This document shows positions 7,856 through 24,630 of a DNA stretch of 32,087 bases, in pieces. The DNA is from a virus. Each line of letters begins with the position of its first letter. The first letter of the stretch is position 1. Position numbers and translations under genes: made by a program. The stretch covers positions 1 to 32,087 of IMG/VR virus record IMGVR_UViG_3300025806_000116; one strand, given 5' to 3'. The notes under the pieces were generated by a model that was given only the letters and a program-made list of their open reading frames with translations, ran no database searches and was not told where the DNA came from.

Positions 7856-8230
7856 CTAAATTCCTTTATCTTGTGCTGGTGTTCCAGCAGCTACTATGTA
7901 ACCTGCTACCATATTATCAGGTGTAGTTATTCTCATTATAGAAGTTTCTATCTTGTTATAATCTTTATAGCTTGTAATTACTTCATCAACTATAAATAAC
8001 TTAGGTTGTCCTATAAATCTAATACAATCTCTAGACAGTCTCTTTCTCATAACTTCACTAGCATATACTTCTCTACTTTTAGAATCTGCCAGTGCTAGGT
8101 CCATTATATCTTTCTCTTCTTTACAGATAAAAAATGCAGCTACCTTATCTCCCTTGCTCCATACTTCTTGTGCTGAGATACAAGTGGGCAGTATTGTAAA
8201 ACAAGCAATAAGAAATAATTTAGCAAGCAT
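7856..8230 (-). CDS. Secreted / periplasmic protein of unknown function
   Basis: A 124-residue protein with a clear signal peptide: MLAKLFLIACFTILPTCISA, with probable cleavage after Ala20. The mature part has about 104 residues and two cysteines (FICKEE and RDCIRFIG) that could form a disulphide in the periplasm, plus a C-terminal beta-like segment (KLFIVDEVITSYKDYNKIET). TTAGAGTGAG precedes the ATG, and the stop of the upstream gene lies within it. Next to the holin-like gene it could be an export-dependent lysis, spanin-like or superinfection factor. There is no lipobox of standard form. No family recognised. Confidence 0.58.
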   Translation of the reverse strand: MLAKLFLIACFTILPTCISAQEVWSKGDKVAAFFICKEEKDIMDLALADSKSREVYASEVMRKRLSRDCIRFIGQPKLFIVDEVITSYKDYNKIETSIMRITTPDNMVAGYIVAAGTPAQDKGI

Positions 8231-13645: not shown

Positions 13646-14335
13646 TTATACCACCTGCAGTCTGGGAGTGATAAAAAGACTCACTCGGTTTCTGTCTGAA
13701 TCCAAAGCACTGGTAAGAAGTTCTTCGTACTTTGCTTTAAGAATAGCTGTTCTCTCTGCAGGGATACCTGCCCTCTTATAACTCAGGTAGTAGGCAAGAC
13801 CGCAGGTCAGAGCAGGGAGAAACCTGAAGGGAACGTCTGCGTTCTGGAGAGCACTCTTGCTAACATCTGCCAGACGTTTCATTCTATAGTTTCTAAAAGT
13901 GTAGGTATCTGCTGCGTCAGGCACAGGGAAGAAGAAAGCACTGACGTTCTCTCTCCCTCTGAGCGTGGCAAACTGTGTGGGCCTACCAGAGGTTGTTTTA
14001 TTGGTGATAGCCTCGTATTCCTCGTAGCCTATTCGGTTCATCTGAAAGTCATTGCTATTGGAGGTCAGTCTGATATACCCAGAGAGAACGTCCACGGTCT
14101 CTGCAGGGAGCGTATACTCTGCTGTCCCTGTGACCAGCGTGGTGCTGGCTAGGTCTGTACCCCAGAGGAGGACACCACGGTTCTGCCAGTCTGTCAGCAT
14201 CAGGTTCAGTGACCTTCTGGCAGTGATAGCATCATTGGCAAGCTCTGCCTGACCACCTAGCATGGCATAGGCTTCTTCTATTACCTCGTCTATAAAGAAG
14301 GTAGTGTCAAAGTCTGATGTGGTTGCAATGGCCAT
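13646..14335 (-). CDS. P22 gp4-like head-tail connector (head completion) protein
   Basis: A 229-residue protein, ATG with AGGTAG upstream. The N-terminal half (TTFFIDEVIEEAYAMLG, ITARRSLNLMLTDWQNRGV, LLWGTDLASTTLVTGTAEYT) matches the gp4-type tail accessory family: a helical pair followed by a beta strand with YTLPAETVDVL. The C-terminal half contains LRGRENVSAFFFPVPD and a helix-rich end. These proteins bind below the portal ring and extend the channel to the hub protein, represented here by the gp10-like product at 4619-6718. Confidence 0.83.
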   Translation of the reverse strand: MAIATTSDFDTTFFIDEVIEEAYAMLGGQAELANDAITARRSLNLMLTDWQNRGVLLWGTDLASTTLVTGTAEYTLPAETVDVLSGYIRLTSNSNDFQMNRIGYEEYEAITNKTTSGRPTQFATLRGRENVSAFFFPVPDAADTYTFRNYRMKRLADVSKSALQNADVPFRFLPALTCGLAYYLSYKRAGIPAERTAILKAKYEELLTSALDSDRNRVSLFITPRLQVV

Positions 14336-14588: not shown

Positions 14589-14762
14589 TTATCTGTTCCT
14601 CATCCAAGCTGGTTTCACAAGGGTATCCATAACTTTACCTCCTCCCTTCAGGGGAAGAGGTTTCATATAAGGTATCCTCCTACCAGAGGGAAGCTGTTGT
14701 TCTACGTTTACCTTCTTTATACCGTAGGGCTTCACTGTTAAATTATATTTTTCAAAAGCCAT
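14589..14762 (-). CDS. Small basic 57-residue phage protein
   Basis: Not a predicted long frame but well supported: ATG at 14762 shares one base with the TGA of the upstream holin-like gene (TGATG), and the frame runs 57 codons to TAA, just before the next gene's ATG. The product starts MAFEKYNLTVKPYGIKK and ends KPAWMRNR. It is basic, Pro- and Gly-containing, with a GGGK turn. The ending MRNR recurs in the next gene's product. Tight packing with both neighbours (1-base overlap upstream, one base between this stop and the next start codon) argues for a real, coupled gene. Function unknown. Confidence 0.62.
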   Translation of the reverse strand: MAFEKYNLTVKPYGIKKVNVEQQLPSGRRIPYMKPLPLKGGGKVMDTLVKPAWMRNR

Positions 14763-15040
14763 CAGGAACGGTACCTTTCTGTTGTTTCCTTTAGAAGAGG
14801 GTCTGAACGCTGTTGAAGAACTGTGTCCAGCTTAGAATCTATTCTCTGTACTAAAGTTTCTACTCTGTTGCTTTTATCTATCAGAGCAATTATAATATCA
14901 TCTTGTCCTTTCAGAGCAGATGCTACATCTCTTAGCATAAAATGAAGAAGTTTCCAAGCTGCCGCTCCTGCTCCTATGGTGGCAACTATGGCAAGTCCGT
15001 AGTCTGATACAGCTTGAAATACACTAAAGTCTTCCACCAT
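14762..15040 (-). CDS. Holin-like membrane protein with C-terminal coiled coil
   Basis: A 92-residue protein, ATG with AAGGAAA upstream. One membrane segment lies around residues 15-37 (LAIVATIGAGAAAWKLLHFM). It is followed by a helical coiled-coil region (ALKGQDDIIIALIDKSNRVE, TLVQRIDSKLDTVLQQ). N-out membrane segment plus soluble coil is a common layout for small phage holin-like or membrane-anchored virion proteins. There is no nearby lysozyme gene (the lysozyme is at 23605-24630). The coiled coil could equally tether a virion component to the membrane. Confidence 0.55.
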   Translation of the reverse strand: MVEDFSVFQAVSDYGLAIVATIGAGAAAWKLLHFMLRDVASALKGQDDIIIALIDKSNRVETLVQRIDSKLDTVLQQRSDPLLKETTERYRS

Positions 15041-15056: not shown

Positions 15057-15179
15057 CTATTCCTCTGAAGGAACTGGGTTACAAGAACAACCTCCTTCGC
15101 TGGTACAAGAACAATCTTCACAACCTGTGCACTGACAGGAAGGATTAGAACACCTCTTCTTCTCTTGTTCCTCAGACAA
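15057..15179 (-). CDS. Cys-rich metallothionein-like peptide (TTG start)
   Basis: A 40-codon frame starts at TTG (15177-15179) and stops at TAG (15057-15059). AGGA lies seven bases before the TTG, and the start overlaps the TGA of the 69-residue gene upstream, so translation is probably coupled. There is no in-frame ATG, and an in-frame TAG bounds the frame just upstream. After a charged start (LSEEQEKKR) the sequence holds eight cysteines at residues 10, 15, 17, 20, 23, 25, 31 and 33, in the patterns CQC, CEDCSC and CSC. This CxC spacing is like that of metallothioneins, which hold Zn, Cd or Cu through thiolates. Such short Cys-rich peptides occur in some marine phages as far as I recall. 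Metal binding is inferred and the start codon is the weak point. Confidence 0.55.
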   Translation of the reverse strand: MSEEQEKKRCSNPSCQCTGCEDCSCTSEGGCSCNPVPSEE

Positions 15180-15381
15180 CGTCCGGTCCTATTCTAGCTG
15201 CGCCGTAGCCTTGCCCTGTGGGTTTACCGTTGAAGGCGTTTAATTTTTCAGAGTCCACGGGAGGGTTCTGATCAGGAATAAGGTAGTCTTCTTTGTTACC
15301 TCCTGACAAGGCGGAGCCGCTTCCAACCTTTCCTCCTTTTTTAAGTCCTCTCTTCTTGGCACTCATGTAGTTCATAGCCAT
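15172..15381 (-). CDS. Small hypothetical phage protein
   Basis: A 69-residue protein, ATG preceded by AGAGGA (about ten bases). The first 22 residues are basic (MAMNYMSAKKRGLKKGGKVG). The rest is polar and Pro/Gly-rich (LIPDQNPPVDSEKLNAF, QGYGAARIGPDVV). No membrane segment or cysteine. Its stop overlaps the TTG start of the Cys-rich gene 15057-15179. No family recognised. It follows the two basic AALRGF-ending proteins and may be a co-packaged accessory protein. Confidence 0.55.
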   Translation of the reverse strand: MAMNYMSAKKRGLKKGGKVGSGSALSGGNKEDYLIPDQNPPVDSEKLNAFNGKPTGQGYGAARIGPDVV

Positions 15382-15384
15382 TAC

Positions 15385-16569
15385 TTAAAATCCTCTCAGT
15401 GCTGCGCCAGAGCCTCTACCAGAGAACCCAGCTTTACGTTTACCCTTCTTGTTCATACCTTGGGTCTTCATCTTACCCCTGCCCGGTCTGCCACCTGCCT
15501 TCTCACCGTCGTCCATGTTGAAGTCTTTTTCAAACTGCTCCGGAGTGGCGTATTGCATTCCATATTTTCTAGAGAAGTCTCCTAGGCCTGTGCCTTCTTT
15601 ACCGTAGAACTTATAGCCATCGTCTGGTTGCTTAGAAGCTTTCTTAGTTTTTCCACCGGGGCTAATATCTAATTCTTCGTTGGCACCTTTAGATTGACTT
15701 TGTCTATAACCTGTGCGCGGGTTCTGGCTACTACCACCTGACGCCTTCTTAGCCTTCTTAGCCTTCTTAGCCTTCTCGTCAGAGGTCAACAGAGTACCAG
15801 CTGCCACACCTGTGCCTACTCCTATTTTACCGCGATTATTTTTTAATGTTTGTACAAGGGTAGATGGACCTCCTTTAGGCGACTTTATCTTGTTACCTTT
15901 AGAATCTTTTATCTTAATATTATTTAACTCTGTTTTAGAAACTGGTCTAGGCTTTGCATCTACTTTTACATTAGGATTACGAGGTGGTATATTCTTACCT
16001 TTAGAATCTGTTATCTTAATATTATTTAACTCTGTTTTAGAAACTGGTCTAGGCTTTGCATCTTCTTTAATCTTTTTCCCTGTTGATCCCTGCAAAGCTT
16101 TTTTAGCTTTGTTATATATACTTTCAGCTACTTTATATTTACCCATGTCTTTTCCTCCGGGTGTTGTTCTATTTACGTTCTGTGCTACTTTTGCTGCTGG
16201 TGCACCAAGTGTCTTTAGTCCTGCAGCTGTTAAAGCAGTATCTGTAGCAGCAGTTATCATATTCTCTGCTGTAGGTTTATTTAAAACCTCGTTTATAGAT
16301 TCTGCAGGAGTTCCCAAACTTAGCAAGCCTTGTACAGGTTTTGCAGCGGGACCTAGTGCACCAGAAAGAAACTTATCAACAGGTTTTGTAAAGGGGTCTG
16401 TGTACTCTGACCACCAGTATTTACCTTTTTTGTCTACAGGCGTTCTTTCTCTGGCAGCTTTATTACCTGCTATTCTTTGTCTTTCAGTTTCTTCAGAATT
16501 TGTCAAGTGACCCACAGGATTATAAGGTGTAGCTCTACCCCCATTTTGAAACTTAATTTTTCTATTCAC
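15385..16569 (-). CDS. Basic repeat-containing phage protein ending in AALRGF
   Basis: A 394-residue Lys/Gly/Pro-rich protein starting at GTG (16567-16569), with AGAGG about ten bases upstream. Residues about 55-150 are less charged and may fold as helices (SGALGPAAKPVQGLLSLGTP, ENMITAATDTALTAAGLKTL). The segment DAKPRPVSKTELNNIKI occurs twice, near residues 170 and 204. A KAKKAKKAKKASGG stretch follows. The last 36 residues (GGRPGRGKMKTQGMNKKGKR, KAGFSGRGSGAALRGF) are nearly identical to the end of the next gene's product. Probably a nucleic-acid-binding or co-packaged virion protein. No enzyme motif is seen. Confidence 0.62.
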   Translation of the reverse strand: MNRKIKFQNGGRATPYNPVGHLTNSEETERQRIAGNKAARERTPVDKKGKYWWSEYTDPFTKPVDKFLSGALGPAAKPVQGLLSLGTPAESINEVLNKPTAENMITAATDTALTAAGLKTLGAPAAKVAQNVNRTTPGGKDMGKYKVAESIYNKAKKALQGSTGKKIKEDAKPRPVSKTELNNIKITDSKGKNIPPRNPNVKVDAKPRPVSKTELNNIKIKDSKGNKIKSPKGGPSTLVQTLKNNRGKIGVGTGVAAGTLLTSDEKAKKAKKAKKASGGSSQNPRTGYRQSQSKGANEELDISPGGKTKKASKQPDDGYKFYGKEGTGLGDFSRKYGMQYATPEQFEKDFNMDDGEKAGGRPGRGKMKTQGMNKKGKRKAGFSGRGSGAALRGF

Positions 16570-16571
16570 TT

Positions 16572-17696
16572 TTAAAATCCTCTTAGTGCTGCGCCTGCCC
16601 CTTTCCCGGAGAACCCAGCTTTACGCTTACCTTTCTTATTCATACCTTGGGTCTTGAGCTTACCTCTTCCCGGTCTGCCGCCTCTCTTCTCACCAGAGGA
16701 GTCCTCCATCATTTCATCGTAACCTTTTTGGGTCATGCCCATGATACTTTTACTATCTTTAGGAGTGAATGCGTACATTCCCCCTTCTGTGGGATCACTC
16801 TTTATAACAGCTGTAGTTTTGAACTCACCCGGATCAAAACCTTCTCCGCTAGTTTCAGAAGACCTAGCTGTTTTCTTAACTCTACCAGAAGTCACTCCTG
16901 CTGGTGTAGCAAGTAATTCTGCGTCCATACCTCCGCCTGTAAGTCTACTAGGTTTAGATCGAGGTCTAGGAGCTTTCTTAGGAGCTTTCTTAGGTGCAGC
17001 AGATGCAGCAGGTGCAGGTGCAGCTGGTTTAGGTTTAGGACTGACTGGATGAGGAGAAGCCCTTCTCCCTACTGGTTTAGGTGCTGAAGCTTTAGTAGAG
17101 TTACGAGCCTTGCTAATCATACCCTGAGTCTTAAAATCAGAAGAAACTCTTCCCTGTCCTCCTTCATCTTCTATAAAAGGTTTAGCTTTAGATTTACCTT
17201 TAAGACCAACACCACCGGTGCTACTGATGCTCTGGGCTGCTTTTGGGCCTTTTACTGGTTTAGGTGCTGAAGCTTTAGTAGAGTTACGAGCCTTCCTAAT
17301 CATACCCTGAGTCTTAAAATTAGAAGAAGCTCTTCCCTGTCCTCCCTCATCTTCTATAAAAGGTTTAGCTTTTAGTGAAGTAGACTGCTTAATCCTTTCA
17401 GGTTTTTCATATAGCTCAGGATTTGCTTTTATTCGTTTTGCTGAGTCTGCCATCTTAGGATTTACAGGTTTTTTCTTTAATGATCTTGATAAAGCTTTAG
17501 GAGCAGAGCCTATCTTTTTAGCTGGACCCGTGTCATCACTTTGATTTGTGCTTGTTCTTGATCTACCAAGAGGAGTACCCTTTTTAGTAAATGAACTTGC
17601 AGCACCAATATTTTTTTTCTTTTTATTTAGCTTTCTTGTCTTAGCTCTATCAGTGGCTTTCTTCATATAACTACGATTATCTACTGGAACTACCAT
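16572..17696 (-). CDS. Basic low-complexity phage protein with internal repeats, ending in AALRGF
   Basis: A 374-residue, very Lys/Arg/Ser/Pro-rich protein with no predicted globular core, ATG with GGGAG upstream. A 40-residue unit beginning KAKPFIEDEGGQGR and containing FKTQGMI and KARNSTKASAPKPV occurs twice, near residues 108 and 168. A Pro/Ala/Lys-rich section lies near residues 215-250. The last 36 residues match the end of the adjacent 394-residue protein. The short motif KTQGM appears in the repeats and again in the tail. Likely disordered and DNA- or RNA-associated. Function not known. Confidence 0.6.
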   Translation of the reverse strand: MVVPVDNRSYMKKATDRAKTRKLNKKKKNIGAASSFTKKGTPLGRSRTSTNQSDDTGPAKKIGSAPKALSRSLKKKPVNPKMADSAKRIKANPELYEKPERIKQSTSLKAKPFIEDEGGQGRASSNFKTQGMIRKARNSTKASAPKPVKGPKAAQSISSTGGVGLKGKSKAKPFIEDEGGQGRVSSDFKTQGMISKARNSTKASAPKPVGRRASPHPVSPKPKPAAPAPAASAAPKKAPKKAPRPRSKPSRLTGGGMDAELLATPAGVTSGRVKKTARSSETSGEGFDPGEFKTTAVIKSDPTEGGMYAFTPKDSKSIMGMTQKGYDEMMEDSSGEKRGGRPGRGKLKTQGMNKKGKRKAGFSGKGAGAALRGF

Positions 17697-23604: not shown

Positions 23605-24630
23605 CTAAATAGCTTTCGGTTCGTAGGGGTTAGGGTTACTGGCCATTCTTCCACCTGTGGATCGCTTGGCCACTTGAACTGGGTCATCTCCCATTTTGTC
23701 AGCTTCATTATTTAGTGCTAGGACTACATCGTCCATTCTTGGAACAATTCCTGATCTTCCAAGTTTTTTAGCGTTTTCATATTCTTTATTATTTACAAGC
23801 TCTTTGGCAGCTTCCCTAAACTTTCCTTTGTTGATAAGTTTTCTGGTCTTTGGACTTGCCTTTGGCGTCAGAGTGCCTCTGTAGTAAGACTGGGTTATTT
23901 GCAGTTGTAAGTCTGTAGAGTAGGTGTCAAAGTTAGGATAGGCCCTTTTAATCTCTTTTAGACGAGTGTCTAGGTCTTCTCTGAGCATTTGATCTGCTTG
24001 TTCTTCTGTGATTCGAGTATCTTTAGTTATAGGTTTTCCTTCAAGGTCTCTGGTTCTTCCGTAGCCAATGGTATAAGGATCACCCTTTACAGGCTTTCTT
24101 GCCTTTAGTATAGGTGCTCCTTCGTAGTACTTAATTGTATGAATAAGTGCATCGTCAAAAGAAGGTTCAGCTGCTACACCACCGTCTGCCTCTGGTTCTG
24201 GATGAGGAGAAGTTCTAACCTGTGTTCTAGTAACAGGCTCTTCAAAAGAATCATCAGCTGGAGGACCTCCGTCTGGCTCTGGTTCTGGATGAGGAGAAGC
24301 TCTAACCTGTGTTCTAGTAACAGGCTCTTCAATGGCAGGGGGAGCGCCAGCAGAAGGAGAAAAAAGATTACCTAGATAACTTTTAATTGAATCTACATCA
24401 ATCATAGAGCTTTCCTCATTTGGTTCTTGTACTTGGGGAGTGGCCATTAGTCCTGCAGGAGCAGGAGCAGGCATAGACATAGGAAACCTACTACGCAGAG
24501 TACCACCGGGGTCTTGTTCTTCCTCTACCTGTTGAACAAACTCTTGTTGTTTCTTTGTCAGGGGGCGTCTTTCTAAGTAACTTGGCAGGTTACCTATTAG
24601 TTGTCTCTGAGTTATCGGTGAATCTACCAC
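23605..24630 (-). CDS. Lysozyme-like muramidase with N-terminal extension (T4/GH24-like)
   Basis: A 341-residue protein starting at GTG (24628-24630), with AAAGGA upstream. Residues 1-160 are Pro/Glu-rich, with a perfect-register tandem repeat of 29 residues (101-129 and 130-158, each EEPVTRTQVR plus SPHPEPE). The lysozyme domain spans about 160-300: YYEGAPILKARKPVKGDPYT (Glu170 and Thr187), IGYGRTRDLEG, EEQADQMLREDL and DLQLQITQSYYRG. T4-type enzymes use Glu, Asp nine residues later, and Thr six after that. Here Asp184 comes 14 after Glu170, and the usual Asp place holds Lys or Arg. It lies in the head module, so it may be a virion-associated peptidoglycan enzyme instead of an endolysin. Confidence 0.74.
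   Translation of the reverse strand: MVDSPITQRQLIGNLPSYLERRPLTKKQQEFVQQVEEEQDPGGTLRSRFPMSMPAPAPAGLMATPQVQEPNEESSMIDVDSIKSYLGNLFSPSAGAPPAIEEPVTRTQVRASPHPEPEPDGGPPADDSFEEPVTRTQVRTSPHPEPEADGGVAAEPSFDDALIHTIKYYEGAPILKARKPVKGDPYTIGYGRTRDLEGKPITKDTRITEEQADQMLREDLDTRLKEIKRAYPNFDTYSTDLQLQITQSYYRGTLTPKASPKTRKLINKGKFREAAKELVNNKEYENAKKLGRSGIVPRMDDVVLALNNEADKMGDDPVQVAKRSTGGRMASNPNPYEPKAI
24187..24332. repeat. 87-bp direct repeat inside the lysozyme gene
   Basis: Two near-identical copies of roughly 56 bases starting at 24190 and 24277 (TCTGGTTCTGGATGAGGAGA, then a segment with TAACCTGTGTTCTAGTAAC). The offset is 87 bases, exactly 29 codons. This makes the 29-residue repeat in the Pro-rich linker of the lysozyme-like protein. 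The high nucleotide identity suggests a recent duplication, unlike the diverged repeats in the fibre gene at 11313-12632. Confidence 0.85.

Follow-up and report, generated by a model that had tools for sequence, protein, structure and literature searches.

Does a short, cysteine-rich open frame inside the virion module of a contig from an uncultured marine phage constitute a gene, and if so, what might its product do? The window analyzed here, the whole 32,087-nt stretch of the IMG/VR virus record IMGVR_UViG_3300025806_000116, carries such a frame of 40 codons on the minus strand from 15179 to 15057 (the plus-strand reading of 15057-15179 is interrupted by a stop). The preliminary description had reported a 40-residue frame with eight cysteines and a TTG start at this place; it is present, on the minus strand. 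The frame begins with TTG, ends with TAG and encodes MSEEQEKKRCSNPSCQCTGCEDCSCTSEGGCSCNPVPSEE, in which the 8 cysteines among 40 residues are spaced C-x4-C-x-C-x2-C-x2-C-x-C-x6-C-x-C. The N-terminus is charged, the window copy has no F, W or Y, and no signal peptide was found in its sequence. Nor was any transmembrane or hydrophobic stretch; the peptide is charged and cysteine-rich throughout, and thus does not look like a holin or lysis peptide. The frame and its surroundings are as follows.

15057..15179, minus strand: gene for the cysteine-rich, metallothionein-like microprotein (40 aa), conserved at 65 of 65 linked loci, core pN/pS 0.25
15187..15190, minus strand: AGGA, ribosome-binding-like site within the upstream gene, 7 bases before the TTG
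15172..15381, minus strand: upstream 69-aa basic, Gly-rich protein, with relatives in the same order and no Pfam or PHROG match
14762..15040, minus strand: downstream 92-aa "holin-like" protein with one hydrophobic helix and a coiled-coil-like tail (phrog_18771, 1.5e-10, a PHROG of no assigned function)
13646..14335, minus strand: SU10-type head-tail adaptor, a virion-module marker (PF24175, 7.4e-11)

The frame had been described as coupled to the gene upstream, with its TTG overlapping that gene's stop codon. Coupling is borne out by the AGGA 7 bases ahead of the TTG and by an 8-nt overlap between the two genes, the upstream gene ending at 15172, but the stop codon itself is clear of the TTG, which sits 2 nt ahead of the upstream TGA. 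The 92-aa gene starts 16 nt downstream of the peptide's stop codon. The frame had also been expected to escape standard gene callers, but the common ones allow TTG as a start and genes as short as 123 nt.

The neighborhood is a virion module comprising terminase, portal, major head protein, SU10-type adaptor, a large virion protein, GroES and endolysin. The nearest named phages, judged by the terminase and a phrog_3287 protein, are Pelagibacter phages HTVC023P and HTVC027P, phage DSL-LC04 and Roseobacter phage CRP-902, at ∼30-40% identity; no C.NP.C.C frame was found within the stretches of these four phages that were read. No tRNA or RNA families were found within the window. Two adjoining minus-strand genes (15385-16569 and 16572-17696) encode basic low-complexity proteins whose C-termini are almost the same (GRPGRGK.KTQGMNKKGKRKAGFSG.G.GAALRGF), and their DNA is 86% identical across 123 bases. 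The simple repeat-like stretch at the contig end (31326-31663), whose frames read RGRGRGRG and HVHVHVHV, may be an end effect of assembly.

Cysteine content by itself says little about whether the frame is a gene: as many as 8-9 cysteines per 33 residues occur in open stretches elsewhere in the window, and simulation gave 8 in 4 of 60 windows. We used the downstream 92-aa one-TM protein, which is neutral with respect to cysteine, as a linkage anchor for searching IMG/VR contigs. The anchor was found on 41 contigs, 40 of which held upstream DNA, and a wider profile added 25 more with upstream DNA, giving 65 loci with 31 distinct peptides; since the contigs are metagenomic, these loci may include the same virus sampled repeatedly. 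A cysteine-rich homologue lay immediately upstream of the 92-aa gene in all 65. The start codon was TTG at 62 loci and ATG at 3, and every locus had a purine-rich ribosome-binding-like site (AGGA, GGAG, AAGG or GAGG) upstream of the peptide. One relative (L032) has ATG at the equivalent place with AAGGAGG ahead of it, which supports the start assignment.

Selection was assessed on the ungapped core of 18 codons in 17 distinct sequences. Variable sites at codon positions 1, 2 and 3 numbered 8, 5 and 17, and pN/pS was 0.25 in the peptide frame, whereas neither of the other forward frames fell below ∼1. Cysteine codons switch silently between TGT and TGC, without loss except in one clade where one Cys has become Ser. 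Conservation owing to an antisense frame was rejected, as the mirror frame contains stops in 10 of the 17 sequences. The preliminary description had named three patterns that would speak against the gene, namely loss of the Cys codons in close relatives, synonymous and non-synonymous changes at equal frequency, and in-frame stops. When these were looked for, the cysteines proved to be kept apart from a Cys-to-His and a Cys-to-Ser clade, the in-frame substitution pattern was far from equal, and no in-frame stop occurred among the relatives. We conclude, with near certainty, that the frame is a genuine gene, based on its conservation at all 65 loci, in-frame purifying selection, and the conserved start and ribosome-binding-like site, and not on its cysteine count. 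A chance open frame, which the cysteine-rich stretches elsewhere in the window would allow, has a negligible probability given this conservation, the codon-position bias and the persistence of TTG or ATG at the start.

The peptide had no match at E ≤ 1 in Pfam (including the PF02069 metallothioneins) or NCBIfam and none at 0.1 in PHROGs. A PDB profile search returned no true match, its one hit being a toxin matched by chance at E 0.95. Nothing useful came from querying named phages at the protein level with the peptide and four relatives, short cysteine-rich queries being poorly suited to BLAST. A genome scan with the narrow alignment gave no confirmed member. The family is thus absent from Pfam, PHROGs and NCBIfam and is uncatalogued, although metallothioneins themselves are known.

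Beyond the window lineage, we defined a wider family by C-x-N-P-x-C-x-C followed by further CxC pairs, a definition that includes the window peptide, and scanned IMG/VR with the DNA-level patterns C.NP.C.C.GC and then C.NP.C.C..C.C..C.C. The latter pattern occurred on at least 120 viral contigs but on only 1 when the dipeptide was reversed (PN), which shows NP to be a genuine hallmark of the peptides. A profile of the window family reached a second phage group at ∼1e-6, with 0 decoys among 82,185 reversed frames, and found some cellular copies at 3e-4 to 8e-3, whereas the T4-like members lie beyond its reach and are linked to the others only by the signature. The wider members were picked by their cysteine pattern, and short cysteine-rich peptides can converge; judged by profile, the window family is only weakly tied to the T4-like and cellular copies. 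In the second phage group, homologues of a 124-aa window protein with a signal-like N-terminus (7856-8230, minus strand) directly precede the cysteine microprotein; in the window the two genes are 7 kb apart. Five viral proteins (L218, L228, L260, L262 and L265) combine a signal-like N-terminus, a CxxCxGxG zinc-ribbon-like part and a C-terminal C-x-NP-x-C-x-C module.

Among 119 viral sites examined, an iscU-like gene was nearby at 24 and an iscA-like gene at 24 (with Pfam support), and at most isc-associated loci the peptide directly follows the iscU-like gene, whose stop lies ∼50 nt before the first Cys. L183, L292, L205 and ∼20 more marine phage contigs carry iscA- and iscU-like genes, in most followed by the C-x-NP-x-C-x-C microprotein. 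At 11 of the 119 sites the peptide directly follows a virion adaptor-type gene and at 4 it lies upstream of a T4-type DNA polymerase gene (gp43). The earlier view that such peptides are rare in phage structural operons therefore does not hold: a widespread unannotated family exists in many marine viruses and some bacteria, with the 11 loci after an adaptor gene among its members.

The same pattern was found in 65 stretches of a genome collection, several of them fusions. The module is joined to a heavy-metal-associated domain (HMA; PF00403, 3.5e-13) in L276, L298 and L334, and to a 4Fe-4S ferredoxin (1e-12) in L299. In six proteins it forms the N-terminus of BlaI/MecI/CopY-type repressors (PF03965, 3e-19); five of these are from Acidimicrobiia or Acidimicrobiales (L272, L291, L300, L312 and L322) and one is from Dormiibacterota (L308), and repressors with this N-terminal cysteine module are likely to be metal sensors. 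The SAR11 copies (L281, L270, L337, L338 and L339), present in 4 of 99 genomes of that family, lie between a metallo-beta-lactamase-fold-like gene and cysE/cysK-like genes in an operon-like array, one of them with a sulphide:quinone reductase-like frame upstream; context gene names without Pfam support, such as SAR11 cysE/cysK, were assigned by reading the sequences.

What, then, would the peptide do? The preliminary description had called it metallothionein-like, an idea largely supported by its composition (40 aa, 8 Cys in CxC and CxxC) and by retention of the cysteines across the 65 loci. Metallothioneins are shorter than 100 aa, with ∼20-30% Cys in CxC/CxxC, and the peptide fits this class: it keeps its putative cysteine ligands throughout apart from the His and Ser clades, its aromatics are few (none in the window copy), and its predicted fold is slight. 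The AlphaFold2 model is poor (mean pLDDT 62.6, two short strands), which would weakly fit a peptide that folds around metal; one relative (L379) carries an FWF insert. The 31 distinct peptides contain 7, 8, 9 or 10 cysteines, which therefore cannot all be paired, and at 9 loci the signature reads C-x-NP-x-C-x-H, with His at the same position. Replacement of Cys by His is a typical swap between metal ligands and is senseless for a disulphide. Together, the Cys-to-His clade and the clade with 7 cysteines favor metal ligands over paired disulphides, and on these sequence grounds the peptide probably binds metal.

We favor, with rather less confidence, an intracellular role in which the peptide, made late in infection, would buffer soft metals through its thiolates. 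Initiation at the TTG would occur by translational coupling to the virion-module genes, for which reason the peptide is probably produced late. Its charged N-terminus, together with the lack of a signal peptide, of aromatics and of much predicted fold, makes a location in the reducing cytoplasm most likely. There the clustered cysteine thiolates would bind soft metal ions in metallothionein fashion, the peptide wrapping around Cu(I), Zn(II) or Fe(II)/Fe-S; it may buffer or hold metal released from dismantled host metalloproteins and in this way protect phage assembly or supply metal to phage proteins. We consider this role the most likely because the module, wherever its neighbors are informative, accompanies copper-type, iron-sulphur and cysteine/sulphur genes and because the cysteine changes are of ligand type. 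Several points weigh against it: the peptide resembles no known metallothionein model or PDB chain, one clade lacks one Cys, so that the exact cluster is not fixed, the wider family was gathered by a cysteine pattern open to convergence, and the genes beside the window-lineage copies are virion genes or of unassigned function, with no metal genes among them.

The preliminary description had named a virion metal carrier and a structural Zn protein among the possible roles. The same virion setting could indicate a structural or assembly factor, with one or two Zn ions holding the peptide as a small knuckle in the virion or docked on the neighboring TM or adaptor proteins. In favor of such a factor, the peptide never leaves its place just ahead of the same 92-aa gene in the window lineage (65/65), and at 11 other loci it comes right after an adaptor gene. 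However, the module also occurs away from virion genes (in the iscU arrays, near gp43, in the SAR11 cys operon and in the HMA and repressor fusions), the predicted fold is poor, with a pLDDT of 62.6 and two short strands, and the cysteine number drifts from 7 to 10, unlike that of a fixed Zn knuckle; we judge this reading unlikely. Constant adjacency to the TM gene could also mean that lysis or superinfection exclusion involves a secreted or membrane-linked, disulphide-rich peptide together with the one-TM protein encoded downstream, and the T4-like phages L170 and L178 likewise have a small TM protein downstream. This is very improbable, since the peptide has no signal peptide, odd cysteine numbers (7 and 9) and the Cys-to-His swap are unsuited to disulphides, and the window has an endolysin gene elsewhere (23605-24630). 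Profile comparison did not support kinship between this one-TM protein and its T4-like counterparts (probability 1%).

In another reading, the peptide would serve not as a metal buffer but as a carrier of Fe-S precursors, persulphide or sulphane sulphur. The iscA/iscU-peptide arrays (∼24 of 119 loci) and the ferredoxin fusion are in line with such a helper, as are the SAR11 neighbors, namely the metallo-beta-lactamase-fold gene (persulphide dioxygenase-like by eye) and the cysE/cysK-like and sulphide:quinone reductase-like genes. Yet no such genes lie near the window copy, the HMA and CopY-like fusions suggest copper-type metal handling, and the paper on phage IscU and ATC genes (PMC5332604) mentions no such peptide, so that we regard a sulphur-trafficking role as doubtful. 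The metal-buffering role that we favor may have a broader counterpart. Tentatively, several unrelated marine phage lineages, along with SAR11, SAR202 and other bacteria, could share a metal-thiolate module that phages produce during infection to control the host copper, zinc or iron-sulphur pool, in which case metal handling would be a general oceanic viral strategy.

No report of phage metallothioneins was found in the open literature searched. If the peptides bind metal, this family of at least 120 viral contigs would be, as far as that literature shows, the first recognized metallothionein-like family in phages, and viral management of trace metals in metal-poor seawater would become directly testable with peptides short enough to synthesize. 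In addition, C-x-NP-x-C-x-C provides a clean signature for annotating overlooked small genes, including those in iscA-iscU arrays and in fusions to copper-type domains.

Among known systems, the bacterial metallothioneins SmtA/BmtA (PF02069) and mycobacterial MymT are likewise short, with ∼20% Cys in CxC/CxxC and few or no aromatics, and similar soft-metal thiolate chemistry would be expected of the peptide. In contrast to them, it bears the C-x-NP-x-C-x-C signature and has no PF02069 match at E ≤ 1; to our knowledge, it also lacks a His/zinc-finger core of the SmtA type. Bacterial CopY/BlaI repressors (PF03965) and HMA metallochaperones (PF00403) with cysteine tails contain the same module, but the phage peptide is a free-standing protein that lacks any regulator or chaperone domain. 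Marine viruses are known to carry Fe-S genes (iscU and an A-type carrier; PMC5332604), in a report whose main text does not contain the word cysteine and describes no Cys-rich companion peptide. Whereas ∼24 of 119 members of the present family examined have iscA- and iscU-like genes in the vicinity, none were seen among the window genes examined. Finally, the Ferrojan or Trojan Horse hypothesis places iron at His-x-His sites in phage tail fibres (PMC11705849). Common to that proposal and ours is the pairing of marine phage and metal, with His-x-His tail-fibre sites there and a cysteine microprotein here.
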